From a virus, in the IMG/VR virus record IMGVR_UViG_3300030090_003269, positions 10,622 through 51,489 of that record: 40,868 nucleotides of DNA. The stretch is one strand, 5' to 3'. Below the pieces are notes generated by a model. That model saw only the letters and a list, made by a program, of their open reading frames with translations, did no database searches and was not told where the DNA came from. The position numbers and the translations under genes were made by a program. Positions 16,450-38,774 of the stretch are shown one piece after another; positions within the stretch are counted from its first letter, which is position 1, and each line of letters begins with the position of its first letter.

Positions 16450-19400
16450 ATGCCAAATATTAAAAACAATTTTGCCGCTGGTAAAATGAACAAAGATCTT
16501 GATGAGAGACTTACTCCAAGTGGTGAGTATAGAGACGCTATGAATATACAGGTATCTACTTCTGACGATTCAGATGTTGGTACTGTTCAAAATATATTAG
16601 GTAACAAACTTTTAGATGGACAATCTGGTATACCATCTGGTTCTGTTTGTATAGGTTCTATTTCTGACGAAAAAAATGATTGTTTATATTGGTTAACAAC
16701 AGAAAACTCTTTTAAATCAGCTTTTGAAGATGATAATCCAGATATTATAGTTGAACAAGGACCTAATCAGCAAGGGCAAGGAGATCCTTGGCCTGCAAAT
16801 TATTTTGCACCACCACTTGATGATATAAATGGTACTTCAACTAGTTTTTTTAAGTCTAATTTTTTTACAAAAAAACGTAAAAATACTATATATAAAATAC
16901 AAGAAATAGAAACAGATTTTAACACTTATGACTATGAAATTACACCTGTTTTTATTGACGATGCTGGTTTAATAGTAACCGCTTGGCGGTCCATGGGTAC
17001 TGGTGCTATTGGTCAATCACAAACTGAATTAGCAAACGAATTATTTGCTAGTGGAACAGATAATTTAGGTAACACGTACACATGTACACAAGGTTCACCT
17101 TGTAACGCTTTTGACGTTGACATTTACAATGGTCATACTTCTTATGGTTTTATTAACAACGGTATGGGGTATGGTAGCAATAACGGACCTGTTCCAGGTG
17201 TTAAAACTAGTTTTCAACTAAATATATATGATGCTGCTGGTATAAGAATTGGAGATAAAGTTGAAGGTATTGGTTTTAATCCTTGGTCTGTATATTTAGG
17301 TGGCCCTGCGTATCAAAACTTTTTTCCAGAAGACACTGTTGTAACAGCTAAGCAGGTTATTTCAACATGGACCGATCATTCTGGCAATCAATATGAACAC
17401 GCTGTTATTACACTTAACAAAGGTGTTTATGCGATGTGGTTTAACGCTATAGATGGCGTATTAGAGGAAAATTTACCATTTGTTTTAGGTCAAGGCTTAC
17501 CAACAAGCGTTTTAGTTTCTCATTTTGTTTTTGATGGTAGTGTATTAAAATTTTCTCCTGAAAACCTAGTAACAGGTATTAATATTATTGACGATATGCT
17601 TTTCTTTACAGACAATAATACTGAGCCTAAAAAAATAAATATACCAAGATCTATAGAAGGTACAGACCCAAGTGGTGAAATACATACTAAATTAATTAAT
17701 AGAGATCAAAACATAAGCTTTTCTAGTGATATAGACATTAGAGAAGAACATGTTACTGTTATAAAAAAAGCACCAACAAAAGCCCCTATTATAGATGTTA
17801 GTATTGGTAGAGATGAAAACTTAAACTACTCTGGAATAATATATACTACAGAACCAGGTTCTAGTGTTAACAGTTCTTTTTTAAACGGAAACCAAACACA
17901 ATCAACAGCACAAAATTTTCAAAGTTTTTCTGTAGGTGATACTATTTATTTAAGAATAGAAGAAAGAACAGATTATACAAACGCTTTTAATAATCCAGCC
18001 AATTTTGCTTTTAACAGTGGTTATTCTTTCGAGTGGAACACAGCTCAAAATAGAGAGGTTGTTTTAAAAGAGTGCGATATAAATGACGGTACTTCAGTTC
18101 CAAGTTTACCTATTAAAGATTGGAGAATAAAAGGTATAGTTGTACCTTGGAGTGGAAATAATTTTACAATAACAAGCCCAACTGGTTTTGGATCAATACA
18201 CCAGGTTGCTATAGAAATAACAGCTATAAATGATGCACCTCCAGTAGCTGATGCTATAATTAACGGTGGCGTTTTAAATTATACTATTGATCTTTTTGAT
18301 AAATCAGAAAAAATATTTGAATATAAATATCCTAGATTTGCTTATAGATATCAATATGAAGACGGTGAGTATTCTACTTTTTCACCTTTTTCTGAGGTTG
18401 CTTTTGTTCCTGGTGGTTTTGATTATCACTCTAAAAAAGGATACAATATAGGTATGACAAATATGGCTGCTTCAATTGCTGTAAAAAATTATATACCAGA
18501 AGATTTACCTTTAGATGTTGTAAAAGTTGATATATTATACAAAGACGATGCCTCTCCAAATATATATTTAGTAGAATCAATAAGGCCTAATGATTCTCGT
18601 ACCGTTGAAATAGAAGACGCAAGTGGTAGTATAACAAATATAAACTATTGGGATCTTAATGAATTTATTATTACAGACGAAACTGTTAGCGCTGTCTTAC
18701 CGGCAAATCAATTATTAAGAACTTATGATAACGTGCCTAGAAAAGCCTTAGCTCAAGAAGTTTCTGGCAGTAGAATAATATATGGTAATTATTTACAAAA
18801 TTACAATATAACACAAAGAGACGATAAAAAAAGTCCTTTTGTACCTAACTTTAAACACAGCTTAGTATCTTACCCAATAAATACAACTTTAAAATCTATA
18901 AAATCATTAAGAGAATATCAGTTAGGAGTTACTTTTTTAGATGAATATGGTAGAGAAACACCGGTGTTAACAAATCCAAACGGCTCTTTTAAAGTTTCAA
19001 AACAACAAGCTGTTGCAAATAACAGAATTAAAGTTGGGCTAAGAGACCAAGACTATCCTAGAAACATGAAGTTTTTAAAGTTTTATATAAAAGAAACTTC
19101 GGGTGAGTATTACAACATGGCTATGGATCGTTACTATGATGCTGAAGATGGCAACATGTGGTTGGCTTTTCCTTCTTCTGATAGAAATAAATTAGATATA
19201 GATACTTTTTTAATATTAAAGAAAGGAGTGAGCTCAGATACTCTTGTTACTGAAAAAGCTAGGTACAAAATATTAGCTATAGAAAACGAAGCTCCAGATT
19301 ACATTAAAACAAATAGAGTTGTTGTTTCTGCTGAAACTCACAAGCATATAGTAGAAGATACTGATCCAAGTAGTAGTACTTTTGGTACTTTTATAAACAA

Positions 19401-22400
19401 CACTGATAGACTTTTTGGAGACACACTTGATGAGGTCCCTGTTGAAGGCGGTGTTTCTTTTAAAATGTCTTGGAGTGCTGGCTTTGATAATGGTACTGGT
19501 AGAAATTTAGAAACAATATTAGAAAAAGAAGCAGGTGAGCCCGGAGCAGAACTACATGTTGACTTTGTTAACACTATTAACGGTGAAACTTCTGCTAGAT
19601 ATAAAATAGCCGAGATAACAGCAGATAGAGATTCTGTTACTGGAGAAGCCGAATACTATTTTATAAGAGTTGAGGATACTTTTGGTACTGATGTAAACTT
19701 TATGCTTGACAATCCTTCTCAACCAAATAATGCTACTGAAATAAGAGATCGTATAAAGGCCAGAGTATGGAAATACACGGTTGTTAACAAGCCTCAATTT
19801 GATGGTAGATTTTTTGTAAAAATATTTGTAGACGAAATATTTCAAAAACATATAAAAGCAATATTTGAAGGTGAAATAGAATACGCTGAACTAGCTCAGA
19901 AAAAAGTTTATCATATGCCTAACCATAATATATATATGGAAAGAATGAAGCATATTGTTGGTTGGGCTGGTGGTAAAAGTTCTGAATCTATAACGGGTAG
20001 TGATACACATTATACTGTTGGTGATACATCTGCTCTTGGTAGATATATGGCTTATTTTCAACCTATGAGAATGTATACACAAGCCCATCATGATTCTAGG
20101 GCTGGTGGTGGTCACGCTGACATTGCATATGACGCTTATAGCAATTCGTTTACTGTTGGTGCGCAGGGTTATAATAGACTACTAAGAACAAATTATGCTG
20201 GTATTGCTGCATATCCATATTACACTTATAAATGGTCTGTGCCTGGAAGATGGTATATAGATGAATCTACTTATTACGCTACTAGATACAATGATGATTT
20301 TTATGATGAAGGTTGGATTAATAAGCCAGGCGGTGTTAATAGTAGTGGTATTACAAATTATAATGTTCAATCAAGAGTACACTTATCTTTTGGCGGTATT
20401 ACGGCTGGTACAAGAGAATATTTTGACACAGACACTGTTTGCATTGCTGATATAAATTTGTATTCAAGCGTAGATGGTCATAATGAAAATATTAATGAAT
20501 CTTATTTAGATAGTGGTGGTAGTATACATTTTACAGGAGACGATGTTTATGATCTTCAGTCTTCTACTATTAGAAAAGTAACTACTGAACCAGGTAGTCA
20601 AGGGTTTTTTAATATAACTGGTAGTAATAGTATTTACAGCAACGCTCTTGCGCCTAACGATAGACATGAAGATCAACACAACTTTGCTGGTAAATTAAAT
20701 TCAGGATTTAGATTTAGATGGGAAAATAATCCTTATGGTACTGTGCATGAAATAGTTGGTAGTGTTGACCAATTACAACTATGTAGAAACCCTAAAGCAG
20801 GTACTAACTCAACAATTAACCATGCCCCTAGTTCTCAAGGTTGGGGAAGTACATCTACTCTTGATAGCAATGAAAGAATAAGTCTTTATAGGCCAGCAAA
20901 CTTTTCAAAAAAGTTTAGTTATAATGTAGAGCCTTCTATGAGTGTTTGGGATCCTACTCATAGCTCGAACAATCTTGTTCCAGGCCCAATACCCAACGGT
21001 GTTAAAATGGGTAACAATGATAATCCAATAACTTTTTTAGAAGGTAGAGAAATAAAATTAACAGGTACTCAAAGAATAACACAAAGTCAAGTTGGCGCTA
21101 ACATGAACAACAAGCCTTATATTAGAGTAGATAATATTACTGGTTTTTGTGATAATTCAGAAACACCACAGGTTATTACTCAACAACAATATCTAATAAC
21201 AAACTTTAACGATGCTACTGGTGCTCCTGATCATGATAATTTACTTGTTGAGTCTATAAAAGAAGTGGGTGCAAATGAATATATAATATTCATAACTGGT
21301 TATTATAAAAGATTAGAACAAAGTGATTTTCCTAGTTCTGTTGGTAGTACTGACGAGGTTACTCTTAGACAGGCCTGTATGAATGGTATTTCACCAGAAG
21401 CAGCAGAATCCTTAAACATGGATCCTGCGGTACAAAGTAATTATAAAACAATAGGTTCTGTTGGTTATAACATACAGTTTGTTGATGAAATATTTCCAGA
21501 CGAAATACTACCTGAAAAACCAGCCATTTGGGAAACAGAACCAAAAGAAACAAAAGATCTAGATATATATTATGAAATAAGTAAAAGTATACCTTTGTTT
21601 TTAGATGACACTACTATTAGAACTATTATTGAAAACGGTTCTTTTGTAAGTACAAATGATACCACAGATGCTAGTGGTGTTATTATAAATCATTTAGATC
21701 CAAACACAACGGTAGTTAATGCTTATGATAATGTTATAGAGCTATCACACTCTGCGGTTTTTGATCCTACAGATCCAGCTGTTGGTTTAATACCTGAACA
21801 AGTTTTTCGTGTTGAAAACGCGGATGGAACTAGTTTTGGCGTTGAAGCTGTTGAATATTTAAGTATAAATGTTACTTATCCTAACATTGATCACATTGTA
21901 TTAAATCCTTCTTTATATAATAGTAACCATAGACTTAATTGGCATAATTGTTATTCATTTAACAATGGTGTAGAATCTAATAGAATAAGAGACAACTTTA
22001 ACACTCCTTTTATATCTAATGGTGTAAGAGTTTCTTCTACATTAGAAGAGAAATATGAAGAAGAAAGAAGAAAATATGGTTTAATATACTCGGGGCTTTA
22101 TAATTCTGTTTCTGGTATAAATAATTTAAATCAATTTATTACCGCTGAAAAAATAACAAAAGATGTAAATCCTATATATGGTAGTATTCAAAAACTATTT
22201 TCTAGAGATACTGACTTAGTTACAATGTGTGAAGATAAAGTTTTAAGAATATTAGCAGATAAAGACGCTGTATTTGAGGCAGACGGTAATGCTCAATTAA
22301 CTTCAACAAATAGAGTTTTAGGTCAAACAGTTCCTTTTGTTGGTGAATATGGTATATCTAAAAACCCAGAAAGTTTTGCTTCTGAATCTTATAGAGCTTA

Positions 22401-25400
22401 TTTTAGTGATAAAGTTAGAGGTGCTATTATTAGATTATCTAGAGATGGTATTACTCCTATATCTGATCACGGTATGAAAGATTGGTTTAGAGATAATTTA
22501 AAGCTTACAAGCACGATACATGGTAGTTTTGATGATAAAAAAGATGAATACAATATAACCTTAAGATATCCTGGAACTATAAAAGAAACTGCAAAAAAGA
22601 AAAACGCAACTGTTTCTTTTAGAGAAGATGTTAAAGGTTGGGTTAGTTTTAAATCTTTTATAAAAGAACATGGTGATAGTTGTGCTAATAACTATTACAC
22701 ATTTAAAAATGGTAAAATATACAAACATCACGTTGAAGGTGAAGATTACAATACTTTTTATGGTACGCACACAGATTCTAGTTTTATTACTATTTTTAAT
22801 GATGTTCCAGGAAGTATCAAATCTTTTAAAACTTTAGATTACGAGGGTACTCAATCAAAAGTAGATGTTCAACTAAATGTTAGTGGTGGTGTTATAGATG
22901 ATGGAGAATATTACAACTTAGACGAAAAACCTGGTTGGTATGTTGAAAGTATAGAAACAGATCAAGATGTTGGTAGCTTAAACGAATTTATTAAAAAAGA
23001 AAAAAAGTGGTTTAACTATATTAAAGGAAAAAGCTTGTTGGTTGCAAATTATCAAGCTCTTGGTTATGACGGGGAAAACTTTGCACACCAAGGCTTAGGT
23101 ACTTTAGCTGTAGACGCTTATGATACTGAAGTATATGGTTGTATGGACCCAACAATGTTTAACTATAATCCAAACGCAACTATTAATCAAATAAGTGCTT
23201 TTAACTTTACAAGTGATCCTTGTATTCCATTTGTTTATGGTTGTATGGATAGCTCTGCCGCAAACTATGATCCAAATGCTAATACAGATGATGGTTCTTG
23301 TCAGTATCCTGGCTGTACAGATGGTACATATGTTAATGGTTGTGGTGTAGGTTGTAATGGAGCTATTAACTATGATCCAAACGCTAATGTTGATGACGGA
23401 TCTTGTATTTATTGTGTGCTTGGTTGTACTGACCCAACAGCATTTAATTACGACGCTATGGCTACATGTGACGATGGTTCTTGTATACCTGTAATAATGG
23501 GTTGTACAGATAACTTTAATAACAATGTTGTTAACTATGATCCTGCTGCTAATACGGATGATGGTTCATGTGATTACTATGGCTGTATGGATTCTCTTGC
23601 TGACAACTTTTTACTTTCTGGACAAGATAATGGATGGAATGTTACAAACCCAACTACTGGTGAAAACGTATTATGTTGGGATAATCAAAATGCTAGTAAT
23701 CCAAGTGAAAATATTTATCCTTTTTCAATAACTTTAAATTATCCTTATCCAGGCCCTACGATTGATTATTTAACTAACACTAACCAAAACCCTAATTGTA
23801 CTAACTGTCCTATATCTTATATACCGCCATGTGCAACTATAGATGATGGTAGTTGTACATATCCACCAACATCTGGTTGTTTAGATGCTACCGCTTGTAA
23901 TTATGATCCAAATGCTACTTTAGCGGACTATTGTCACTATTGCGCAGATCCTACAGCGCTGTTTTATGATTGGGCAGATTTAAGTGGTTTTAATGCATCT
24001 AACTGTAACAGCGGTTGTGTAGATTGTCCACCTATAACTGGTGTTACAATAACAAACGTAGATCACACTGGTTGTACAATAACTTGGGATGTTCCTGATG
24101 TACAGTTTTTACAAAATATGTCTGCAAGTGGAAATCAAATAAATGGTACGGGTGTTTGGCGTATAAAAGTTCACTGGGGTAGTCCTAATTTTTCACCTCC
24201 TTATGATCCTAGCTCTGGTCAAGGTGGTAGTACACCAGTTTCTGGATATATAGAATACTCTCCTTATGATCTTACTTTAAACAACGGTGTTTATATAACA
24301 GACAATGGCAATGGCACTCACTCTATAGATGTTTCTTTTGGAGCACCAGGTATAGTCATGGGTAATAATTTTATACCTAACACAACTTATGTTGTTGCTG
24401 TTGATGTTATGTGTCAAAATGATGCTAGAAATCATCCTATCGCTCCTAACAATGCTTCTTTACAATACTCAAATAACTTACAAAGTAATCTTGATGGAGC
24501 GTCGCAAAACTCTTTACCATCATTTACAATACCTACACCGCCACCACCACCTGTTTATGGTTGTACTGACACTAACGCTATAAATTATGATTGTGATTCT
24601 AGTAATGTATTTGGTTATACTTGGCCAAACCCAGGTTCAATTATGACACAACAGCCACCTTGTAACGATGGTGTGACTGTTGATGATGGTAGTTGTATCA
24701 TGCCTGTTTATGGATGTATAGATGATGGTTATTGTACAGATGGTGTTAATCCTACTGGTTATGGAGGTTCTTATCACTGGTGTTCTAACACCTCGCCTCA
24801 CGATAGCTCTAATAGTTATGCAAGTCCTTTTAATGGCATTGCTGCGGACAATTATGATCCAAACGCAAATACTGATGATGGATCGTGTAAGTATATCGGT
24901 TGTACAGATCCAAACGCGTGTAATTACGATCCTTTATATAACGAACCTTGTTTAGATGATAATGGAACTCCAAATGGTACTGTTGGTAATGGTTGTTGTG
25001 GTGGTTGTGGTGATCCTTCAGCCATAAATTATAATGGTGTTACTAATTATGGTTGTACAGGTAACTGCGTAATGTGTCCTTGTTTAGACAATACCACGGG
25101 TGCGGGTGCGATTAATGATAATTTAATTGTAGATCCTGTGTATATGACTGGAAACGGCGCATTACTTGATACAAATGATGGTCAAACTTACATGCCAATA
25201 ACAATAACGTTCCAGTTTCCTAGTGGCTTTGACTTTAGTCTTCTTGATACTGTAGGTCCTAATTATAATATTAAATTAAGATATAGAAACTTGTCAACTA
25301 TGATTTTAAATACAGTACAAATACCTGTACCTACTAGTTATAATTTAACTAATAGTCCGTTTACGGTTACTTTTCCTGCTTACAATAGCAGTACTAATCC

Positions 25401-25539
25401 AGCATTTTCTCCTCAGTTAGATATAGGTACTAGTTATGAGTTAGACTTTTATGTTGGTTGCCCAACAGATTATAATCAATATATGACAGCTTCTGCTTGT
25501 TCTGGAGACACTGTATTTACACTACCTTCAGTTATTTAA
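16450..25539 (+). CDS. Giant nozzle/stabilisation protein with Cys-rich C-terminal repeats
   Basis: The 3029-residue protein starts with NFAAGKMNKDLDERLTPSGE and YRDAMNIQVSTSDDSDVGT. This signature belongs to DNA-stabilisation/nozzle proteins of podoviruses (P22 gp10-like; 'muzzle' in crAss-like phages), which close the tail tube. Position after two connector genes supports this. Residues 1 to about 2220 are beta-rich with Asn/Thr/Tyr-rich blades. Part of it (about 560-720, 'YKYPRFAYRYQYEDGEYSTFSPFSE') reads like a fibronectin- or propeller-like segment. Residues about 2229-2880 are Cys-rich repeats (separate entry), interrupted by a fibronectin-III-like domain at about 2530-2690. The last 140 residues are beta-rich. 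It is far longer than the P22 gp10 family, so the C-terminal third is an added host-contact module. Confidence 0.75.
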   Translation: MPNIKNNFAAGKMNKDLDERLTPSGEYRDAMNIQVSTSDDSDVGTVQNILGNKLLDGQSGIPSGSVCIGSISDEKNDCLYWLTTENSFKSAFEDDNPDIIVEQGPNQQGQGDPWPANYFAPPLDDINGTSTSFFKSNFFTKKRKNTIYKIQEIETDFNTYDYEITPVFIDDAGLIVTAWRSMGTGAIGQSQTELANELFASGTDNLGNTYTCTQGSPCNAFDVDIYNGHTSYGFINNGMGYGSNNGPVPGVKTSFQLNIYDAAGIRIGDKVEGIGFNPWSVYLGGPAYQNFFPEDTVVTAKQVISTWTDHSGNQYEHAVITLNKGVYAMWFNAIDGVLEENLPFVLGQGLPTSVLVSHFVFDGSVLKFSPENLVTGINIIDDMLFFTDNNTEPKKINIPRSIEGTDPSGEIHTKLINRDQNISFSSDIDIREEHVTVIKKAPTKAPIIDVSIGRDENLNYSGIIYTTEPGSSVNSSFLNGNQTQSTAQNFQSFSVGDTIYLRIEERTDYTNAFNNPANFAFNSGYSFEWNTAQNREVVLKECDINDGTSVPSLPIKDWRIKGIVVPWSGNNFTITSPTGFGSIHQVAIEITAINDAPPVADAIINGGVLNYTIDLFDKSEKIFEYKYPRFAYRYQYEDGEYSTFSPFSEVAFVPGGFDYHSKKGYNIGMTNMAASIAVKNYIPEDLPLDVVKVDILYKDDASPNIYLVESIRPNDSRTVEIEDASGSITNINYWDLNEFIITDETVSAVLPANQLLRTYDNVPRKALAQEVSGSRIIYGNYLQNYNITQRDDKKSPFVPNFKHSLVSYPINTTLKSIKSLREYQLGVTFLDEYGRETPVLTNPNGSFKVSKQQAVANNRIKVGLRDQDYPRNMKFLKFYIKETSGEYYNMAMDRYYDAEDGNMWLAFPSSDRNKLDIDTFLILKKGVSSDTLVTEKARYKILAIENEAPDYIKTNRVVVSAETHKHIVEDTDPSSSTFGTFINNTDRLFGDTLDEVPVEGGVSFKMSWSAGFDNGTGRNLETILEKEAGEPGAELHVDFVNTINGETSARYKIAEITADRDSVTGEAEYYFIRVEDTFGTDVNFMLDNPSQPNNATEIRDRIKARVWKYTVVNKPQFDGRFFVKIFVDEIFQKHIKAIFEGEIEYAELAQKKVYHMPNHNIYMERMKHIVGWAGGKSSESITGSDTHYTVGDTSALGRYMAYFQPMRMYTQAHHDSRAGGGHADIAYDAYSNSFTVGAQGYNRLLRTNYAGIAAYPYYTYKWSVPGRWYIDESTYYATRYNDDFYDEGWINKPGGVNSSGITNYNVQSRVHLSFGGITAGTREYFDTDTVCIADINLYSSVDGHNENINESYLDSGGSIHFTGDDVYDLQSSTIRKVTTEPGSQGFFNITGSNSIYSNALAPNDRHEDQHNFAGKLNSGFRFRWENNPYGTVHEIVGSVDQLQLCRNPKAGTNSTINHAPSSQGWGSTSTLDSNERISLYRPANFSKKFSYNVEPSMSVWDPTHSSNNLVPGPIPNGVKMGNNDNPITFLEGREIKLTGTQRITQSQVGANMNNKPYIRVDNITGFCDNSETPQVITQQQYLITNFNDATGAPDHDNLLVESIKEVGANEYIIFITGYYKRLEQSDFPSSVGSTDEVTLRQACMNGISPEAAESLNMDPAVQSNYKTIGSVGYNIQFVDEIFPDEILPEKPAIWETEPKETKDLDIYYEISKSIPLFLDDTTIRTIIENGSFVSTNDTTDASGVIINHLDPNTTVVNAYDNVIELSHSAVFDPTDPAVGLIPEQVFRVENADGTSFGVEAVEYLSINVTYPNIDHIVLNPSLYNSNHRLNWHNCYSFNNGVESNRIRDNFNTPFISNGVRVSSTLEEKYEEERRKYGLIYSGLYNSVSGINNLNQFITAEKITKDVNPIYGSIQKLFSRDTDLVTMCEDKVLRILADKDAVFEADGNAQLTSTNRVLGQTVPFVGEYGISKNPESFASESYRAYFSDKVRGAIIRLSRDGITPISDHGMKDWFRDNLKLTSTIHGSFDDKKDEYNITLRYPGTIKETAKKKNATVSFREDVKGWVSFKSFIKEHGDSCANNYYTFKNGKIYKHHVEGEDYNTFYGTHTDSSFITIFNDVPGSIKSFKTLDYEGTQSKVDVQLNVSGGVIDDGEYYNLDEKPGWYVESIETDQDVGSLNEFIKKEKKWFNYIKGKSLLVANYQALGYDGENFAHQGLGTLAVDAYDTEVYGCMDPTMFNYNPNATINQISAFNFTSDPCIPFVYGCMDSSAANYDPNANTDDGSCQYPGCTDGTYVNGCGVGCNGAINYDPNANVDDGSCIYCVLGCTDPTAFNYDAMATCDDGSCIPVIMGCTDNFNNNVVNYDPAANTDDGSCDYYGCMDSLADNFLLSGQDNGWNVTNPTTGENVLCWDNQNASNPSENIYPFSITLNYPYPGPTIDYLTNTNQNPNCTNCPISYIPPCATIDDGSCTYPPTSGCLDATACNYDPNATLADYCHYCADPTALFYDWADLSGFNASNCNSGCVDCPPITGVTITNVDHTGCTITWDVPDVQFLQNMSASGNQINGTGVWRIKVHWGSPNFSPPYDPSSGQGGSTPVSGYIEYSPYDLTLNNGVYITDNGNGTHSIDVSFGAPGIVMGNNFIPNTTYVVAVDVMCQNDARNHPIAPNNASLQYSNNLQSNLDGASQNSLPSFTIPTPPPPPVYGCTDTNAINYDCDSSNVFGYTWPNPGSIMTQQPPCNDGVTVDDGSCIMPVYGCIDDGYCTDGVNPTGYGGSYHWCSNTSPHDSSNSYASPFNGIAADNYDPNANTDDGSCKYIGCTDPNACNYDPLYNEPCLDDNGTPNGTVGNGCCGGCGDPSAINYNGVTNYGCTGNCVMCPCLDNTTGAGAINDNLIVDPVYMTGNGALLDTNDGQTYMPITITFQFPSGFDFSLLDTVGPNYNIKLRYRNLSTMILNTVQIPVPTSYNLTNSPFTVTFPAYNSSTNPAFSPQLDIGTSYELDFYVGCPTDYNQYMTASACSGDTVFTLPSVI
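23134..25085 (+). repeat. About ten in-frame Cys-rich repeats (GC.D...NYDP.A..DDGSC)
   Basis: The coding repeat begins at Y2229 (23134) with YGCMDPTMFNYNPNAT. Further units start at about 23236 and continue to about 25085. Good copies have GC.DP.A.NYDP.A and then a DDGSC box about ten residues after the NYDP. Several are stretched by long insertions between the two boxes, and a fibronectin-III-like domain lies between units. Paired Cys suggest disulfides, hence exposure outside the cell. The same repeat is common in secreted proteins of marine flavobacteria (known to me from such proteins). Confidence 0.85.
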
Positions 25540-28732: not shown

Positions 28733-29422
28733 ATGAGCTGGGGTGCTATAGTAGTAGGTGTTGTGGGCACCGGGGTAAGTTTAATTCAATCTGAAAGAAA
28801 CAGAGAAAAAGCAGAAGGAAGATTTGAAGCTGCTGAAGAAGCTAGAAAAGAACAACAAAAAGCGCTAGATATAGAAAAAAGAAAATATCTAGAAATGGAA
28901 ATAAAAAACCCTTTTGCAAATCTTGAAAATGTATACGAAGACTTAACCGTAAATCAACAGCAAGCACAGTTTATGGCTCAACAAGGTGCACAACAAAGAG
29001 CTAACATAATGGAAGGTTTAAGAGGTGCTGCTGGTAGTAGTGGTATAGCTGGTTTAGCCCAATCACTTGCCAACCAAGGTGCTTTACAAACTCAAAGAAT
29101 ATCAGGTATCATTGGTCAACAAGAATCAAGAAATCAATTGGCTGCTGCAAAAGGAGCTGCTGCCGTGCAAATAGCAGAAAGACAAGGTGCTCAATATCAA
29201 CAACAAACAGAAATGAATAGACAAGCTACACTGTTAGGTATGCAGGCCGGTCAAACAGCTGGTGCTTTAGCCGCAGAACAACAAGCAATAGCAAATCAAA
29301 TGAACGCTGAATTAGCTCAACAACAAATAGTTGCTGATATGTTTGGTGTTATTGGTGGTGGTTTGGCTGCTAATGCTAGTGAGCTTGGTGGTGATGATAA
29401 TAATATATTTACTAAAGAATAA
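28733..29422 (+). CDS. Ala/Gln-rich internal virion (ejection) protein
   Basis: The 229-residue product starts with a hydrophobic helix (MSWGAIVVGVVGTGVSLIQ), followed by a charged coil (about 20-60). A long Ala/Gln/Gly-rich helical region contains LTVNQQQAQFMAQQGAQQRA and 'GLRGAAGSSGIAGLAQSLANQG'. This composition is like podovirus internal core proteins (T7 gp14-type) that leave the capsid and form a channel through the cell envelope. The gene precedes two larger proteins of the same kind, separated by three and one bases. The initial hydrophobic helix fits membrane insertion. Family identity is inferred from composition and context. Confidence 0.6.
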   Translation: MSWGAIVVGVVGTGVSLIQSERNREKAEGRFEAAEEARKEQQKALDIEKRKYLEMEIKNPFANLENVYEDLTVNQQQAQFMAQQGAQQRANIMEGLRGAAGSSGIAGLAQSLANQGALQTQRISGIIGQQESRNQLAAAKGAAAVQIAERQGAQYQQQTEMNRQATLLGMQAGQTAGALAAEQQAIANQMNAELAQQQIVADMFGVIGGGLAANASELGGDDNNIFTKE

Positions 29423-29425
29423 AAC

Positions 29426-31198
29426 ATGGCATCAGATAAAAATTTAATAAACGCAAGTTTTAACCTTTCTACAGCTCAAGCTAAAGTTGAGTATCCTGAT
29501 CTTACAAATGTTTATAAAGCAAATATAGATGTAAGTAGACAATACATGGGTATAATAACTAATGTTTTAGGTGAGTTAAAAAAAGAAAGAGATAACCAAA
29601 GAATAGGTAAAGAAAAACAGCTTGAAAATCTTAAGAGATCTATAGACGCTGGTTTTAAAAAAATATATTCACAAAAAGAACCTATGCCTATGAAAGTTGT
29701 GCAGGCTGTCAGAGATGAAATAAAAAAGTTGCAAGCAGATTTTGAAGAAGTAAATACGTTTGGAGATGATGACAACGAGTTAAATGCAGAAGCTAGAATG
29801 CGTATTGAAGGTCAATTAAATAGGGTTATAAACGCTGCTGTTAATTTTAGAGAGCAAACAATGAATTTAAAAACTCGCGTTGAAAACGTTAGAGTAGACG
29901 ATGTAGATGGAAAAGTTATAAATCCTATGACTTTAATGCTTGACTTAGATAACATGGATACTAATGATGATGTAGGTGTTAAGTTTATGGATGGTGATTT
30001 AAAGGTTTATGCTCAAAATTATAACACTGACTACATGAGAGTTTTAAATCCAGATCCAACATCTAAGTTAAGATTTTTAACACAAAAACAAAAATCAGGA
30101 GAAGTCGTAGGTATGACTATTGATGAAATGGCAAGTGCCTTACCTCAGTATGACGCTGATAAATTAAAAAATGTTATGGCTAACATAAATGATTACTCTA
30201 CATTAGGCGCTGCTGACGCTAAATTAGAAGCTCCTGTAAATTCTTTTGAAAATCCAGATTTTTATTCTTCTGAAAAAACAAGGTTTATTAACACTCATAT
30301 TAAAGATAAGGGTGATTTTCAAAACTTAGCTAGTAGTATGATAGTTGGTGCTTCTTTTAAAGACGCTTTGTATGATAGAATAGATATAGCAACAGAAGTT
30401 TTAAGTAATATGTTTTTGTCAGATACTGGTGAAAAATCACCTTTAAGCGATGTTTTTGCAACTTTAGATAGAAATAAAGATGGCAGTATAAACATGAAAG
30501 ACGCTAAGGGCTTACAAGGTGAGTCTAAAGAAAAGTTTAAACAAAACTTTAATTTAATGGTTGAAGTTTTAACAAATACTACGCATGAAGCTTTTGATTT
30601 AAAAAGGTCAAGTGATTTATTAGCTGATTATTACATGGGCATAGGTAAAAATAATTACCAAAGAAATTATGATGCTGTTCTTAATGAAAACGTAGACAAA
30701 GGTTTAGAGCCTTGGATTGGAAGTGGTAAATCGTTACGTGCTCAAGGTATTGGTGGTAATGGTTATATAGAATATTACGACGGTCTTAACATGTATAACT
30801 CTGCAAAAGAAGCTATGAATGGTAAAGAAACTTCTTTTACTGTTAATAATTATAAATACTCTTATAATCCTGCAACAGGTACATGGAGTGGTGAAACGCT
30901 TAAAAAGCCAGTTCCTACACATGTATTGTTTGGAAAACAAACAGGATTTAAAATATCACATCCTGATTTTGATATGTTTAGAGTTAAGCCAAAAAAGAAA
31001 GCTTTAAATATAGAAGAAATTAAATTATCAAATAACATTACTGAGCTTACTAAAAGAAAAACCACTATATTGTTCATGTTAGGTGATGAAGATTTCATAA
31101 AAGAAAATTATCCTACAGCAACAAGTGTAGATGAAGCTACTAAAATGGCAATGGATGAGGTTAAAAAAATAAACAAAAAAATAAAAGAGTTACAATAA
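29426..31198 (+). CDS. Probable internal virion protein with an EF-hand loop
   Basis: The 590-residue protein is largely helical and charged, with few hydrophobic segments. It has one complete EF-hand calcium loop at residues 348-359, DRNKDGSINMKD. The ligands are at the 1, 3, 5 and 12 positions (D348, N350, D352, D359), with Gly at 6 and Ile at 8. Helical flanks (FATL before, AKGLQGESKEKFKQNF after) fit an EF-hand. The C-terminal 100 residues include FKISHPDFDMFRVKPKKKA. It lies between the Ala/Gln-rich protein and the giant multidomain protein, both candidate ejection proteins. Calcium binding could stabilise the protein in the virion or sense seawater calcium; this is inference. Confidence 0.55.
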   Translation: MASDKNLINASFNLSTAQAKVEYPDLTNVYKANIDVSRQYMGIITNVLGELKKERDNQRIGKEKQLENLKRSIDAGFKKIYSQKEPMPMKVVQAVRDEIKKLQADFEEVNTFGDDDNELNAEARMRIEGQLNRVINAAVNFREQTMNLKTRVENVRVDDVDGKVINPMTLMLDLDNMDTNDDVGVKFMDGDLKVYAQNYNTDYMRVLNPDPTSKLRFLTQKQKSGEVVGMTIDEMASALPQYDADKLKNVMANINDYSTLGAADAKLEAPVNSFENPDFYSSEKTRFINTHIKDKGDFQNLASSMIVGASFKDALYDRIDIATEVLSNMFLSDTGEKSPLSDVFATLDRNKDGSINMKDAKGLQGESKEKFKQNFNLMVEVLTNTTHEAFDLKRSSDLLADYYMGIGKNNYQRNYDAVLNENVDKGLEPWIGSGKSLRAQGIGGNGYIEYYDGLNMYNSAKEAMNGKETSFTVNNYKYSYNPATGTWSGETLKKPVPTHVLFGKQTGFKISHPDFDMFRVKPKKKALNIEEIKLSNNITELTKRKTTILFMLGDEDFIKENYPTATSVDEATKMAMDEVKKINKKIKELQ

Positions 31199-31199
31199 T

Positions 31200-34100
31200 A
31201 TGTTTGAATTTGACGGAGACGAATACACATTAGAAGAACTGCAAGGGTATGCTAAGCAGCAAAACATGGATTTTGAAACTTACCTAAAAGAGTTAAAATC
31301 TTTAGGTTTAAAAGAAAAAGAAAGTCAAACTATGTATCCTTGGAGCGGAAGTCAGTTTGTATCTGGTACAGATAGGCTTGTGTCTGCTAATGAACCTAAG
31401 TTTATGTCTACAGTAAAAGATGGTCAATTTGTAAATCTTTACGAGGGAAATGAACTTCAAGAGCCTCAAGAAACAACAGTTTTAACAAGTGAACAAGAAG
31501 AATTAAAAACTTTTTTAGAAAAAGAATACACTAGGCCTACTAATGAGCTTGGTTATACAAGACCTGCTTTTTGGCATGAAAACTACAACAATAGTGAAGA
31601 AGGTAAAAAACATGCTAACCGTATTTATTCTATGACAAGTGATGGTTATCATTTTAATCAAGATGAAGATGATGGCGTTAAACATTTAGAAAAGTCTTTA
31701 AAAAAAGCAGGACTTGCAAATGAGTTTGAAGTAAAAACAAGTGGAGGTATTTTTACTCACAGAATAACTGTAACTCATAGGGCTACTGGTTATAGCAGAG
31801 AGTTTAACGCTCAATTAGATGGAGACCAAGGTAAAAAAGAATTTAAAAGATTTCAAGACTGGGCCGCAAATCCAAAAGAAACAACAAGTGAAAGAGATAA
31901 AAGAATATTATCTAGAGAAGTTGGATTTGAAGTTCCAGATTGGTGGATTGAAACTAGTACCATGCTTGCTGATAATGTTTTAGGTTTAATACAAGGAACC
32001 ATGTACACTGTTGAGAGCGAAAAAATAGCAGATGGTATAGCTCAAGGAAAAACTATAGATGAATTAATACAAGAAGGTGAAATTTGGGCTGGTCATCAAG
32101 CTTTTAGTCATGTAAGAGGACGTTTAAATAGATTTGAAGATCCTCATTTTAACGAAGATGGTAGTCAAGCAGATGTTGTTGATTTAATAGATCAGGGTAA
32201 ATATGCAGACGCTGGAAATTTAGCCTCTTCCCAGGCTGTTTCAAATATATATTCTTTTTTAATATCAGCTGTTAATCCACTTGCTGGAGCTGGTACTATA
32301 GCTGTTAGTAGTTATGGTGAAAATTTTAAAGAAAATATAGACAGGCGTTTAGATCCTGCTAATATTACAGAAGAAGATTTATCTAATTTAAGAGAAAATG
32401 CTTTTTATAAAGCTGGCGCTGAATTTGTTGGTGAATATTTAGGGGCTAGATTTTTTAGAGGTGTTGTTGGTTTAGGTAGGAAAGGAACTACAGAAGAAGC
32501 TGTAAAAGAATACAGTCGTGGGTTTATTAATAGAGGTTTAAGAGGTTTTGGTTTAGGTTTTACTGGTGAGTTTGTGGCTGAAGGTATTACAAACAACTTA
32601 CAACAAGCTGCAGATCAAGGTGTTTACGGAGATGAAAAAACATTTAGAGATTATTGGAGAGGTTTTATAAACGATGGTCTTATTGGTGGTCTTTTAGGTG
32701 GTCCAATATCTGGTGGTATGAGAGCTACAAATGCAACATACAAAAATGATATATATAAACTTCTTGCTCCTAAAAAGTGGCAATCTGAAATGCTTGATTT
32801 AAATTTAAGAATTCTTAATGCAAAAGAAGAGATTAATAATGCTACCGGTAGAACAAGAGAATTATATCAAGAAAGATTAGATAGGCTAGAGCAAATGAAA
32901 GCTGCAAAAGAAAAGCAATTAAATGCTACTTTTGACAACAAGACAGATACAGAAATGCTTGAGTATGCTAAAAAAATTGATAGAATAAGTAAGCTTTTTG
33001 ATATATACGTTGATAGAAAACAATCAATATCAACAAGAAACGATGCTAAAAAAGAAATATCAGATTTATACAATGAATTAAATCAAGATCACGTTGGTTT
33101 TATAAATGCAAAAACAGAAATAGAAATAGGTAAAGTGTTAAAAGCTAGAGAGCTTTTAGATTCTAGAAAAGGCATAAGAGGATTTGGAAAAGATCTAGTT
33201 ATAAAATATTTAAATACAGATGAAGAAGTTGAAGCCGCTATAAAAGAAAGTGGAGAATCAGACTTGTCTAAAGCTGATGGTATGTTTATGGGTGTTAATG
33301 CTGATGGCAAAAGCACTATATATATTAACACTAGAGTTGCATCAATGACTGGAGCAACAAATGTTTTAGGTCATGAACTTTTGCATTATATATTTTCAAA
33401 AAACTTTAAAACTGATAACGCATCGATGAAACCTTTAGTTGATGCATTTAAAACATATCTAGTAGAATCTGGTAATAGCGCTTACTTAAAAAGAATAGAA
33501 GATAGAATGAAAAGTAACGGTTATTTTGACCAAGACGGTAATATAAAAGAAAACTATTTAGAAGAGTATTTTCAGTTATTTTCTGACTTAATTGAAAAAA
33601 ATGAAATAAAGTTAAAAGAAGATTCAAAAGGTACAAAACCACTAACAAAAGCGTTTACAGATAAATTTGTTGCTTTAGGTTTAAAGTCTGTAAAATTAGA
33701 AACTGGTAAAGATGTTTTTGATTTTTTAAGATTATATACTAAAAATGTAAATAGAAAAGGTCTGTTAGGATCAATAACAAAAAGAACAATAACAAGGGTA
33801 CAATTAGAAAGTTCTAAAGTAGCAAAAGCAGATGGTAAAAAGAAAAAAGCTTTTTCAATGTCAAAAGATGCTACAGATGCAGTGAACGAAATAGGTAGAA
33901 TGGGTTGGAATAGTGAAACTTGGAAAACACAAGGATCAGATTACGCTATAAAAACACTACAAGAAGAAAGAATGCTAGATGCTTTAATAAGGTCTAAATA
34001 TAAAGCTGATGTTGTTCCAGAAAACTTTGTTGATCTTGTTTACTCTGAGTTAGTTGGCCATATAAAAAACTTTAATCCAGAAAAAAACGATAATTTATTT

Positions 34101-37100
34101 GGTTGGATAAACTCTCAAATAGCAAACAAAGCTGGTAATGTATACAATAGAGAGTTTAAGAAAAAAGAACAAGAAAAAACAGCAAAAGACGTAGACAGTA
34201 GAACAAAAGAAGGTGATGTTAAAGTTCAAGTTGCTGCTGAAAAAGATACTAGAATAGATGCTTTTGAAGAGCAAGATTTATCGCCAGCAGCAAGGGCACA
34301 AAGAAAAACAGATACAAAAGAAGAAAAAACATCTAAGTTTAGAAATAAATTAGGTATAAAAACAGGAAGTGATTTATATAATAAAATTTTAGATGCTGCA
34401 ACAAAATCTTTATTAAGAGCTTATCAAGCTGGTACTTCGGTAAGAAATATACAAAGAAAGCTTAGAGATGAAGCTAATTTATATTTATTTAAAGATATTA
34501 AAAACTTTTTAGGTGCAAAAGAGTATATTAAAAATTTAAAAGAGTTTAGAGTTCCTATTATAGATGCTATGTTTACAGCTGACTTAGTTCAAATGGAAAG
34601 AAACTTACCAAACAACGAAAGAGTTTTTACAAAGTTTGTTAGAAAACTTACAACAATAGAAGATGTTCAGTCTGCAATAGATCAAAATCTTTTACCACCA
34701 AGTGCTATAAATATTATTAAAAAAGGTACAGCTGTAAGTTTATACAAAAAAGTAATGCCAACTCAAGAACAATTTTTAGGTTTTTTTGATATACCTACTA
34801 TAAATCCTAAAACAGGTGCTAGATCTGGTAAAAGAGGTACTAGAAAAGATGCTTTAGCTAAAGCTATAGCTGGTTCTTTATCTTTTGATGCTACAATGCA
34901 GGTTGCACAAAGTACAGAGGTTGTTAATAAAAGAGCTGAAATAGCAGCTTTAAAAGGTGAAACGTTAGCACAAGACAATATAGAACAATTAGCAGCTGAA
35001 ATTGGTAGAGATCCTAGCGTTAAATTTTCTTATACAAACGATGCTCAAACAAATTCGTATATAGATAAAGGTCTGTATAATCTTTTAATTAATGTAAAAG
35101 ATACAAAAGGCATGTCTTATAGAGTTGCTTTAAAAGAATTAATAAATAGTAATATTTATAGTATAGAAAAACTAAAGAATATACCAGAAATAAGAAAGTC
35201 TTTAAATGAACAAATACTATTAAGACAAAAAGAAGGTTTAAAATCAAAACCAACTTCTTACTATTTAGAACAACATGTAATAAACAATTTTGCTTCATTA
35301 TCAAACAACAACGCGTTTATAAATCTTGTTTTAGATCAAGTAGCTGAAGGCGTAAACCCTGATGTTTCTTTAGAAATTGATGGTATGACTTTAGGTGTAG
35401 AAGTTAAAGCTGACACAGGTAGAGGCCCTGCTAGAACTGTTTATTTAGATATAGATGGTATAATAAACGGTGATATAAATATAGCTGGTAATAAAGAAAG
35501 TTTAAACCCAGAAAAAATAGAACAGTTAATAAAGAAAACTATACCAGCATTAAAGAAAATTAAAAAACTTTTGTCAGAAGAATTTAAAATTAAAAAGTTT
35601 AATTTAAGTAGTGCTCGTGGCGAAAGTCAAACTCTTATACCTGAAGCGGCTTGGCAAAGAATAAAAAAACAACGTTTAGATGCTGAAATAGCTTCTTTTG
35701 TTTTTGTTGATTCTGATTTTGTTAACTTTGATTATTTAAACAAAGAAATACCTTCTTTTTATATAAACATGGGTAATGCAGGTTTATTTACTACTACTAC
35801 ATTTGATCCTTTAAAAACTGGTGCAAGTAATTTTGCAGGTGTACCTATACCATTAACTGTTAGAGTTGTTGCTTCAAAACCAAGTGCGCAACCAGGCATG
35901 AGACGTTTGTCTTTAAAAGTAGAAACTCAACTGGATTCAAAAACTTTTCCAAAACAACCTATTAATTTATTCAAACAAAATGATGTAAATAAAATAGGTA
36001 ATAAGTTTTCTAAATCAAGCCAATCCGGTGTAAGCACTTTAAACAAAGCAATTAAGTTTTCAAGATCTTCTAAAAACAAAACAAAAGGTATTACAGTGCT
36101 AGACTTTGATGACACATTAGCTACAACAAAGTCTATGATTAATTTTACAAGACCAGATGGTACTACTGGTAAGTTAAACGCAGAGCAATATGCTAGTACT
36201 TATGAAGATTTATTAGGCAAAGGATATAAATTTGATTTTTCTGAATTTAGTAAAGTTGTTAAAGGTAAGACAGCTCCTTTATTTAACAAGGCAATGAAAC
36301 TACAGGGTAAGTTTGGTCCTAAAAATATGTTTGTACTAACTGCTAGACCAGCAGACTCAGCGCCAGCTATAAGAGACTTTTTAAAATCAAAAGGTTTAAA
36401 TATACCTTTAGAAAATATTACTGGTCTCGCTAATTCTACAGCTGAATCTAAGGCACTATGGATAGCTAATAAAGTTGCAGAAGGCTATAACGACTTTTAT
36501 TTTGCAGACGATGCTTTACAAAACGTGCAAGCTGTTAAAAATATGTTAGACCAATTTGATGTTAAGTCAAAAGTTCAACAAGCTAAAACTAAATTTAGTA
36601 ATTCAATGAATACTGAGTTTAACAAAATACTAGAACAAGTTACTGGTATTGAAGCTATAAAACGTTTTTCTGATGCAAAAGCTAGAAGACGTGGTAAGCG
36701 TAAAGGTATGTTTAGAATTTTCGTACCACCTTCACATGAAGATTTTATAGGCTTATTATATAACTTTATGGGTAAAGGAGAGTTGGGTAATAAACATAGA
36801 GAGTTTTTTGAAAATGCTTTAATAAAACCGTTAAATAGAGCTTACAGGGAGTTAAATAGAGCAAAGCAAGCAATAGCAAATGACTATAAATCATTGTTAA
36901 AAAGTATGCCACAGGTTAAAAACGTATTAACTAAAGAAATATTAGATGGTGATTTTACAACTGAAGATGCTATTAGAGTTTATTTATGGAATAAAGCAGG
37001 GTTTGAAATACCAGGTTTAAGTAAAACAGATCAAAAACAATTAGTTGATTATATAAAAAATGATAGTGACTTATTAACTTTTGCAGAGGCTGTAGGTAAA

Positions 37101-38774
37101 ATATCAAGAATTGAAGAAGGATATACTAATCCTGGTGATATATGGGATACTGGAAATATAAAATATGATTTAGTAGATGCTACTGGTAGAGTTGGTAGAA
37201 TTAAGTTTTTTAAAGATTTTATAGAAAACGCTGATATAATATTTAGTAAAGAAAACATGAATAAAATTAGAGCGGCATTTGGTGATAATTTTGTTGAAGC
37301 ACTAGAAGACATGTTATATAGAGTTAAAAATGGAACTAACAGGCCTGCGGGTAAAAATAAACAAGTTAATGCTTGGTTAGATTGGATTAATGGTTCAGTT
37401 GGTGCAACAATGTTCTTTAACATTAGATCAGCAATATTACAGCAAATATCTTTTGTTAATTTTATTAACTTTGCAGACAATAATATATTTGCCGCTGCTA
37501 AAGCTTTTGCTAATCAAAAACAATTTTGGCAAGATTTTTCTTTTATATTTAATTCTTCTTTTTTAAAACAAAGACGATCTGGTGCATCGTTTGATGTTAA
37601 CGCTAGTGAAATCGCTAGAGAGGTTTCTAGATCAAAAAACCCTGTTAGAGCAGCAATAAAATATATATTAAACTTAGGTTTTTTACCTACACAAATGGGT
37701 GATAGTTTTGCAATTGCTGTTGGTGGTGCTAGTTTTTTAAGAAATAGAATTAATACTTATTTAAACCAAGGTTTAAGTAAAACAGAAGCGGAAACAAAAG
37801 CTTTTAATGATTTTATGGAAGTCGCTGAATCAACACAACAGTCAGCTAGGCCAGACATGTTATCTATGCAGCAAACTTCTGTTTTAGGTAGATTAATACT
37901 AGCTTTTCAAAATGTTACTTCTCAGTATGTTAGATTAATTAAAAAGTCTGGATTAGATTTAATTAATAGAAGAAAATCACCACCATACACAACACAAGCT
38001 CAAAGTGATAAGGCTAATATATCTAAAATAATATATTATGGAGCTGTTCAAAGTATAATATTTTATGGATTACAATCTGCTGTACTTGCAGCGCTAATGG
38101 AAGATGAAGACGAAAAAAGCGAAAAAATACTTAAAACTAAAAAAGATAGAATTTTACAAGGAACTATTGATAGTATACTAAAAGGTTCTGGTGTTGGTGG
38201 GGCAGTTATTTCTACTCTTAAAAATTACGCTATAAAACTAGAAGAAAACGCAAAAAGTAAAGAGTTTTTTAAAACACCAGCTTGGGAAGAGTTATTGCAG
38301 TTATCTCCACCTATTGGTATTAAAATAAGAAAGTTAAGATCTGCTGAAAGAAGCTTACAGTGGAATAAAGATGCTTCAAAATTAATGAGCAAATTTGATT
38401 TAGATAATCCAACATACGAAATATCAACTCAGGTTGTTGAAGCTTTAACAAATGTGCCTTTAGCTAGATTACATAGAAAATTACAAAACATACAAGCTGG
38501 TTTAGATAGCGAAAATAAATGGTGGCAAAGAGTTGCTGTATTATCTGGTTGGAGTAGATGGGATGTAGGTATTGAAAAAGAAACTTTGAAAGAAGCTAAA
38601 GAAGAATCTAAGAGAATAAAGAACGAAAAAAATAAACTAAAAAACAAAGAAAAAAGTAAAAAAGAACAAAAAAGAAAAAATCTTTTAGACATAGGTGATA
38701 ATGCACCTGTAATAGAAAAAGAAACTAAAAAGAAAAAGAAAAAGAAAAAAATACGTATGCTAGATATAGACTAG
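31200..38774 (+). CDS. Giant multidomain polyvalent-type protein (HELLH, PD-(D/E)XK-like, HAD)
   Basis: The 2524-residue protein begins with a short domain (MFEFDGDEYTLEELQGYAKQQ). Residues about 340-520 are Gly-rich and mildly hydrophobic, possibly membrane-active. Visible domains in order: a metallopeptidase-like helix HELLH at 725-729; a helical part with a faint sigma-2-like stretch at about 930-990; and a nuclease-like fold with the PD...ExK pattern (PD 1387-1388, E1401, K1403). Then comes a HAD phosphatase domain with motif I D1635-F-D-D-T1639, T1714 (LTARP), K1751 and D1770-D1771. The C-terminal part has a hydrophobic helix near 2285 and ends in a Lys run. Such phage fusions are called polyvalent proteins and may travel with the DNA. 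No linker processing is proven. Confidence 0.7.
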   Translation: MFEFDGDEYTLEELQGYAKQQNMDFETYLKELKSLGLKEKESQTMYPWSGSQFVSGTDRLVSANEPKFMSTVKDGQFVNLYEGNELQEPQETTVLTSEQEELKTFLEKEYTRPTNELGYTRPAFWHENYNNSEEGKKHANRIYSMTSDGYHFNQDEDDGVKHLEKSLKKAGLANEFEVKTSGGIFTHRITVTHRATGYSREFNAQLDGDQGKKEFKRFQDWAANPKETTSERDKRILSREVGFEVPDWWIETSTMLADNVLGLIQGTMYTVESEKIADGIAQGKTIDELIQEGEIWAGHQAFSHVRGRLNRFEDPHFNEDGSQADVVDLIDQGKYADAGNLASSQAVSNIYSFLISAVNPLAGAGTIAVSSYGENFKENIDRRLDPANITEEDLSNLRENAFYKAGAEFVGEYLGARFFRGVVGLGRKGTTEEAVKEYSRGFINRGLRGFGLGFTGEFVAEGITNNLQQAADQGVYGDEKTFRDYWRGFINDGLIGGLLGGPISGGMRATNATYKNDIYKLLAPKKWQSEMLDLNLRILNAKEEINNATGRTRELYQERLDRLEQMKAAKEKQLNATFDNKTDTEMLEYAKKIDRISKLFDIYVDRKQSISTRNDAKKEISDLYNELNQDHVGFINAKTEIEIGKVLKARELLDSRKGIRGFGKDLVIKYLNTDEEVEAAIKESGESDLSKADGMFMGVNADGKSTIYINTRVASMTGATNVLGHELLHYIFSKNFKTDNASMKPLVDAFKTYLVESGNSAYLKRIEDRMKSNGYFDQDGNIKENYLEEYFQLFSDLIEKNEIKLKEDSKGTKPLTKAFTDKFVALGLKSVKLETGKDVFDFLRLYTKNVNRKGLLGSITKRTITRVQLESSKVAKADGKKKKAFSMSKDATDAVNEIGRMGWNSETWKTQGSDYAIKTLQEERMLDALIRSKYKADVVPENFVDLVYSELVGHIKNFNPEKNDNLFGWINSQIANKAGNVYNREFKKKEQEKTAKDVDSRTKEGDVKVQVAAEKDTRIDAFEEQDLSPAARAQRKTDTKEEKTSKFRNKLGIKTGSDLYNKILDAATKSLLRAYQAGTSVRNIQRKLRDEANLYLFKDIKNFLGAKEYIKNLKEFRVPIIDAMFTADLVQMERNLPNNERVFTKFVRKLTTIEDVQSAIDQNLLPPSAINIIKKGTAVSLYKKVMPTQEQFLGFFDIPTINPKTGARSGKRGTRKDALAKAIAGSLSFDATMQVAQSTEVVNKRAEIAALKGETLAQDNIEQLAAEIGRDPSVKFSYTNDAQTNSYIDKGLYNLLINVKDTKGMSYRVALKELINSNIYSIEKLKNIPEIRKSLNEQILLRQKEGLKSKPTSYYLEQHVINNFASLSNNNAFINLVLDQVAEGVNPDVSLEIDGMTLGVEVKADTGRGPARTVYLDIDGIINGDINIAGNKESLNPEKIEQLIKKTIPALKKIKKLLSEEFKIKKFNLSSARGESQTLIPEAAWQRIKKQRLDAEIASFVFVDSDFVNFDYLNKEIPSFYINMGNAGLFTTTTFDPLKTGASNFAGVPIPLTVRVVASKPSAQPGMRRLSLKVETQLDSKTFPKQPINLFKQNDVNKIGNKFSKSSQSGVSTLNKAIKFSRSSKNKTKGITVLDFDDTLATTKSMINFTRPDGTTGKLNAEQYASTYEDLLGKGYKFDFSEFSKVVKGKTAPLFNKAMKLQGKFGPKNMFVLTARPADSAPAIRDFLKSKGLNIPLENITGLANSTAESKALWIANKVAEGYNDFYFADDALQNVQAVKNMLDQFDVKSKVQQAKTKFSNSMNTEFNKILEQVTGIEAIKRFSDAKARRRGKRKGMFRIFVPPSHEDFIGLLYNFMGKGELGNKHREFFENALIKPLNRAYRELNRAKQAIANDYKSLLKSMPQVKNVLTKEILDGDFTTEDAIRVYLWNKAGFEIPGLSKTDQKQLVDYIKNDSDLLTFAEAVGKISRIEEGYTNPGDIWDTGNIKYDLVDATGRVGRIKFFKDFIENADIIFSKENMNKIRAAFGDNFVEALEDMLYRVKNGTNRPAGKNKQVNAWLDWINGSVGATMFFNIRSAILQQISFVNFINFADNNIFAAAKAFANQKQFWQDFSFIFNSSFLKQRRSGASFDVNASEIAREVSRSKNPVRAAIKYILNLGFLPTQMGDSFAIAVGGASFLRNRINTYLNQGLSKTEAETKAFNDFMEVAESTQQSARPDMLSMQQTSVLGRLILAFQNVTSQYVRLIKKSGLDLINRRKSPPYTTQAQSDKANISKIIYYGAVQSIIFYGLQSAVLAALMEDEDEKSEKILKTKKDRILQGTIDSILKGSGVGGAVISTLKNYAIKLEENAKSKEFFKTPAWEELLQLSPPIGIKIRKLRSAERSLQWNKDASKLMSKFDLDNPTYEISTQVVEALTNVPLARLHRKLQNIQAGLDSENKWWQRVAVLSGWSRWDVGIEKETLKEAKEESKRIKNEKNKLKNKEKSKKEQKRKNLLDIGDNAPVIEKETKKKKKKKKIRMLDID

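Follow-up and report, generated by a model that had tools for sequence, protein, structure and literature searches.

A giant cysteine-free phage protein with peptidase-, nuclease- and HAD phosphatase-like sites in a candidate ejection gene triad

The locus and its cysteine-free triad

The window analysed here is a 40,868-nucleotide stretch of DNA, positions 10622-51489 of a 58,834-base virus record, with a G+C content of 32.6%. It contains an uninterrupted ATG-to-stop open reading frame (ORF) for a protein of 2524 aa, P0001, which lies directly 3′ of two other ORFs:

28733-29422, plus strand: small ejection-protein candidate, 229 aa, no Cys, Ala/Gln-rich
29426-31198, plus strand: middle ejection-protein candidate, 590 aa, no Cys
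31200-38774, plus strand: giant protein P0001, 2524 aa, 0 Cys

Portal, terminase, virion and tail families lie upstream of this triad, placing P0001 among the late virion genes and leaving the triad at the 3′ end of the structural module. The portal is closest to those of phages of Flavobacterium, Cellulophaga, Maribacter and Tenacibaculum; because most contigs lie in metagenome bins, the host was read from this gene, and the virus is probably an uncultured podovirus infecting Bacteroidetes. On the 3′ side of P0001 (38808-40562) are genes for three proteins: one lipoprotein-like (366 aa), one of 96 aa containing a single hydrophobic segment, and one thioredoxin-like (120 aa; Pfam Thioredoxin, 1.3e-6).

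Both genes that precede P0001 look like ejection proteins, as the first-pass annotation of this DNA had suggested, and the 229-aa candidate carries a hydrophobic N-terminal segment, MSWGAIVVGVVGTGVSLIQ. The small–middle–giant gene order is common to T7 gp14-16, N4 gp52-50, BcepIL02 gp68-70 and gp20-18 of the cultured Flavobacterium phage elemo. The triad (28733-38774; 229, 590 and 2524 aa) totals 3343 aa, none of them cysteine; at the rate of the other ORFs of the window, about 26 would be expected in P0001 alone. Among the relatives described below, the 171,706 aa of giant sequence include 74 cysteines, most of which belong to a zinc-finger-like motif at the terminus, whereas other ORFs have 646 in 69,614 aa. 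Cysteine is also absent from N4 gp50-52 (L073:4524-17524, 4294 aa), T7 gp15 and gp16 (L072:6326-12552, 2065 aa; gp14 has one), BcepIL02 gp68-70 (L139:19221-35612, 5431 aa) and elemo gp18-20 (L070:18861-31936, 4346 aa), and the cargo proteins of crassvirus crAss001 are Cys-poor, not Cys-free. N4-like phages were noted earlier to have a cysteine-free virion polymerase, a feature connected with its route across tail and periplasm (PMC3715699), and the crassvirus structure paper reports that cargo partially unfolds while it is ejected (PMC10172136); a paper on Baltic Flavobacterium phages makes no mention of mass spectrometry or elemo.

From gene order and the absence of cysteine, we infer that 28733-38774 is a podovirus-type ejection set with P0001 as its giant third member. 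Delivery of P0001 into the cell is well supported indirectly, by this context and composition. Cysteine-free ejection sets in unrelated podoviruses may be a general signature, in which case the triad would provide a simple sequence test for ejection proteins. The same operon includes the opposite composition: a 3029-aa ORF (16450-25539) with 61 Cys (2.0%), whose product matches the C-terminal domain of the crassvirus muzzle (E 3e-6).

Predicted catalytic sites and conserved modules of P0001

P0001 divides into the following parts, all on the plus strand:

33192-33839, about aa 665-880: gluzincin-like metallopeptidase domain, assigned from invariant residues and a low-confidence model
33372-33386: HELLH
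33564-33566: E789
33876-35033, aa 893-1278: middle module, mostly helical; its N-terminal part, about aa 906-1000, weakly resembles sigma region 2
35208-35522, aa 1337-1441: probable PD-(D/E)XK-like nuclease domain with four invariant residues
35361-35363: D1388
35400-35408: E1401-x-K1403
35697-35996, aa 1500-1599: module 3′ of the nuclease, present in 11 members
36081-36593, aa 1628-1798: HAD phosphatase domain, assigned from motifs and from profile and fold matches
36597-38609, aa 1800-2470: all-helical C-terminal module, a conserved core
38610-38771, aa 2471-2524: Lys-rich tail

Gluzincin, PD-(D/E)XK-like and HAD sites thus stand in one chain, and each is conserved in relatives. The first-pass annotation had reported HELLH, a PD...ExK pattern and four HAD motifs within this single 2524-residue frame, and all are where it had placed them: HELLH at 725-729; PDVSLEIDGMTLGVEVK at 1387-1403 (D1388, E1401, K1403); and, for HAD, LDFDDTL at 1634-1640 (D1635, D1637), T1714, K1751 and D1770-D1771. 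These sites exceed chance: given the length of P0001 and its 0.7% His, we estimate from composition that about 0.01 HExxH motifs would be expected. Absent from that annotation were E789, the conserved C-terminal module and the cysteine-free triad.

Direct Pfam and PHROGs scans of the P0001 sequence gave no meaningful family, and tblastn against annotated phage records returned no homologue of the whole protein and none of the HAD alone. With P0001 as the query against viral contigs we found 65 loci, whose giants span about 2200-3500 aa where complete; the family is large and was previously unassigned. Residues ~1610-2470, comprising the HAD and the C-terminal module, are 43-65% identical between the relatives and the window, and upstream of the HAD the relatives match P0001 only in pieces, mostly with little similarity. 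Purpose-built HMMs detected the peptidase in 62 of 66 giants and the C-terminal module in all but one (65); the HAD was detected in every one of the 66, a count that covers members recovered with a query that itself includes the HAD. The same HMMs detected the middle module in 22-34 of the 66, the nuclease-like domain in about 15 and the post-nuclease module in 11. Because so few relatives have the nuclease, the peptidase–nuclease–HAD trio is one combination among several. The earlier suggestion that the order of the three enzymes is special is weakened accordingly: the peptidase is nearly universal, the nuclease is not, and distant relatives lack a detectable HAD motif. Those relatives came from a scan of genome contigs that added 20 loci, including four distant giants (L085, L086, L088 and L090; 37-41% identity) that retain the peptidase and the C-terminal module; their match begins within or behind the HAD, and no HAD DFDDT motif was found in them. 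The middle module as a single-sequence query gave 14 further loci, several on contigs already in the set.

Two contigs of the collection carry other genes of note. One has a GroEL-like gene (521 aa) next to a GroES-like gene (85 aa), 5′ of the structural module and recognized from translations only (L066:6563-8369). The other encodes a Cys-rich protein of 629 aa with repeated GCTDxxxxNYxxxANxDDGSC units (L067:1447-3336), of which one similar unit occurs in L066:4641-6185.

In an alignment of 63 peptidase regions with a mean column identity of 18%, the sole invariant columns are H725, E726, H729 and E789, a pattern that suggests a gluzincin with E789 as the third zinc ligand. The best PDB match of the peptidase profile is MJ1213 (E 0.075), which we take to be selecase, a minimal metallopeptidase. 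A low-confidence model of residues 595-1626 (mean pLDDT 61) places strand–helix–strand–strand, the HExxH helix and the E789 helix in that order, with the helices behind a three-stranded sheet. This order resembles the zincin domains of polyvalent proteins (PMC5512222). Foldseek with the model gave no significant PDB match for the peptidase fold and no zincin among the matches listed. Peptidase chemistry is well supported for P0001.

E1357, D1388, E1401 and K1403 are the only invariant columns among 14 aligned domains with a mean identity of 34%, and this invariance fits the pattern of PD-(D/E)XK enzymes. In the same low-confidence model (mean pLDDT 61), D1388 and E1401-K1403 lie on neighbouring strands of a beta hairpin. 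The best PDB match is a weak one to the Holliday junction resolvase 7bgs (E 0.59, with the motif aligned); a VRR_NUC domain, 4qbo, appears in the fold search at E 2.4, and Foldseek with the model found no significant PDB match for the nuclease fold. Residues 1337-1441 are therefore best described as a probable PD-(D/E)XK-like nuclease, and nuclease chemistry as fairly supported. Structure prediction, which the first-pass annotation had named as the check on these two assignments, did not contradict them, with HELLH and E789 on helices and ExK on a hairpin, but yielded no significant fold match.

The HAD is far better conserved than the remainder of P0001: across 18 members it is 67-81% identical to that of the window, with a mean column identity of 81%. 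D1637, T1714, K1751, D1770 and D1771 are present in 53 of 53 sequences and D1635 in 52. DUF2608 matches all 18 HADs (best 8.1e-6), general HAD families match some of them weakly, and a fold search returned class C acid phosphatases, including e(P4), at probabilities up to 0.97 and E ~0.5; a PDB profile search with the HAD gave nothing useful. HAD phosphatase chemistry is well supported. In 14 of 53 sequences the HAD region is matched by phrog_415, a phage family named 'polynucleotide kinase' (best 8e-6), and in one relative, L064, the HAD is interrupted by a P-loop kinase-like domain of the zeta/AAA_33 type. Both observations point to nucleic-acid end processing of the kinase-phosphatase type, so that, by analogy, the likeliest substrates of the HAD are nucleic-acid ends or nucleotides. 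L064 and L051 both have a P-loop domain of the zeta toxin or polynucleotide kinase type between the HAD motifs, as in a fused kinase-phosphatase.

Behind the HAD, a model of residues 1609-2524 (mean pLDDT 70) is entirely helical. Compared with the PDB, the C-terminal module model has no significant match, and a PDB profile search gave nothing useful. Against predicted viral proteins the model has many matches (E 1e-14 to 1e-4, 10-17% identity), and the annotations of several name PolyVal ADP-ribosyltransferase, LPD or MuF. Pfam scans of P0001 and its relatives gave no LPD, MuF or ART-PolyVal domain match, and a search for LPD38 (PF18857) across the genome gave none. Using an LPD38 alignment that we built from seven phages, a direct profile comparison scored the module not above shuffled controls, and the same test ties the C-terminus of Maribacter phage Panino to LPD38 at 97%; because the comparison was negative, we rejected LPD38 as an identity for the module. 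In position and helical build the module resembles the C2 part of N4 gp50 (PMC12633501). About 13 relatives instead have a C-terminus with a Cys/His zinc-finger-like motif, built from one unit or two, each with three Cys and one His, which holds nearly all the cysteine of these giants; DUF5763 matched in 8 of them:

Relatives with zinc-finger-like C-termini: L004, L025, L031, L035, L039, L040, L041, L044, L046, L053, L056, L060, L064

Border motifs and competing readings

Short motifs beginning with FS mark the module borders of P0001, all on the plus strand:

33852-33860, aa 885: FSM, between peptidase and middle module
35025-35033, aa 1276: FSY, between middle module and nuclease region
36006-36014, aa 1603: FSK
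36057-36065, aa 1620: FSR, directly before the HAD domain
36594-36602, aa 1799: FSN, between HAD and C-terminal module; FSK in most relatives

Across the family, no tripeptide in the variable N-terminal parts is more over-represented than FSK (88 occurrences, 28 expected). Of 224 FS[K/R] occurrences, 115 lie no more than 25 aa from a module border, compared with 2-13% for permuted motifs and with border zones that make up 7.4% of the length; for the overlapping form [K/R]FS the figure is 109 of 144. Homologous HAD borders contribute part of this signal, and with them left out 20 of 89 FS[K/R] motifs lie near borders, against 2-10% for controls. Self-processing of polyvalent proteins driven by a zincin was proposed by Iyer et al. 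(PMC5512222). The FS[K/R] motifs may be the sites of such processing, which would make them concrete candidate cleavage sites for a long-suspected activity; they could also be linker-type repeats remaining from module exchange.

The reading that we consider probable is that P0001 is the giant third protein of a short-tailed phage ejection set, built like a polyvalent protein. P0001 would be packed in the capsid alongside the two smaller triad proteins, with the conserved helical C-terminal module serving packaging or ejectosome functions, as does the C-terminal part of N4 gp50. Being Cys-free and at least partly unfolded, it would precede the genome through tail and periplasm and refold inside the cell. 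Either at that point or earlier, while still in the head, P0001 would be cleaved at FS[K/R]-type linkers by its gluzincin-like domain, releasing the middle module, the PD-(D/E)XK-like nuclease and the HAD phosphatase. Iyer et al. (PMC5512222) report that N4 packages gp50 without processing it, so cleavage at the head stage is not a rule. We infer the delivery, the cleavage and all substrates; several features support the first-pass proposal of a delivered polyvalent multi-enzyme protein, namely where the gene lies, the lack of cysteine in the triad, the conservation of catalytic residues and the modular build of the N-terminus, with delivery itself read from context.

Part of this evidence could be read differently, with the peptidase as a virion maturation or tail-passage enzyme for other structural proteins, the giant mainly as a channel, and the nuclease and HAD as minor passengers. 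The triad context is indeed that of channel-forming proteins, and the peptidase and C-terminal module are the parts common also to distant relatives. The HAD, however, is the best conserved part in the main group (67-81% identity), with catalytic residues preserved in virtually every member, a pattern not expected of passengers, and the FS[K/R] motifs cluster at borders inside the giant itself. We regard this alternative as unlikely.

The middle module raises another possibility. Between about residues 906 and 1000 it contains DxV, then FNPE, then FxWIxxQIxN, a sigma-region-2-like pattern, and P0001 might be a virion-delivered transcription factor in which this module redirects host RNA polymerase and the other enzymes are accessory. 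Foldseek with the model lists many sigma factors (sigma32, sigma28, WhiG, RpoS and SigE), with target TM up to 0.75 over 73 columns; a sigma region 2 profile aligns in register (DxV, FxP, FxxWIxxxIxN) with a score of 20.2, compared with 16.9 for the best of 30 shuffles; and the top four matches of a sigma region-2 HMM over the 66 giants all lie within the middle module. However, every Foldseek match has E >= 1, hhalign probabilities are 3-12%, a deeper profile brought no rise in score (19.3), PDB profile searches with the middle module gave nothing useful, and no region-4-like part was seen in P0001. Three approaches thus agree and none is significant, leaving a weak lead, and we consider the transcription-factor alternative quite unlikely. 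Comparably slim is the chance of a fuller version, in which a self-processing modular ejection protein, with FS[K/R] linkers as processing sites, delivers a sigma-region-2-like domain, a nuclease and a nucleic-acid end-healing phosphatase; if true, transcription takeover and defence against nucleic-acid damage would start with the virion itself.

Finally, large parts of P0001 are helical, as in an ordinary large structural or tape-measure-like protein whose motifs are inactive remnants, but only catalytic residues are invariant at mean identities of 18% (peptidase) and 34% (nuclease), a mark of selection for catalysis that makes this reading highly improbable.

Comparison with known systems

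Taken alone, the phosphatase has familiar counterparts. DUF2608 and class C acid phosphatase HADs and phrog_415 have in common with P0001 all four HAD motifs, with weak-to-moderate profile matches; the HAD of P0001 differs from all of these in sitting inside a 2524-residue ejection protein.

At the level of the locus, the giants of elemo (gp18, 3694 aa), isolate ctfjg026 (MW202828) and Maribacter phage Panino occupy the place of P0001 after a homologous portal module. They have zero or one Cys, and those of elemo and MW202828 have a peptidase-like domain; no HAD DFDDT motif, nuclease-like domain or P0001 C-terminal module was detected in the three, and the Panino giant has an LPD38-like C-terminus instead.

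N4 gp50, with gp51 and gp52 (PMC12633501, PMC3715699), is likewise the giant, Cys-free last member of a triad and combines a zincin-type HExxH domain with a large helical C-terminal part. Unlike P0001, it is an RNA polymerase with the zincin after it, and its described architecture includes no HAD or PD-(D/E)XK domain; the phage collection search gave no sequence match between P0001 and N4.

Polyvalent proteins (Iyer et al. 2017, PMC5512222) resemble P0001 in carrying several effector-type domains per chain near virion genes and, as in the DarB-like BcepIL02 gp70, in having a zincin hub domain and a Cys-free triad. P0001 differs from them in lacking an LPD domain recognized by sequence. The words phosphatase and sigma are absent from Iyer et al. 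(PMC5512222) and restriction endonuclease occurs in its references only, so the domain combination of P0001 may be undescribed there. The best reading of the P0001 family is a new family or branch of phage polyvalent proteins, which would enlarge the set of proteins that phages seem to deliver ahead of expressing their own genes, and whose constant core and exchangeable catalytic modules would show which enzymes merit carriage into the cell.
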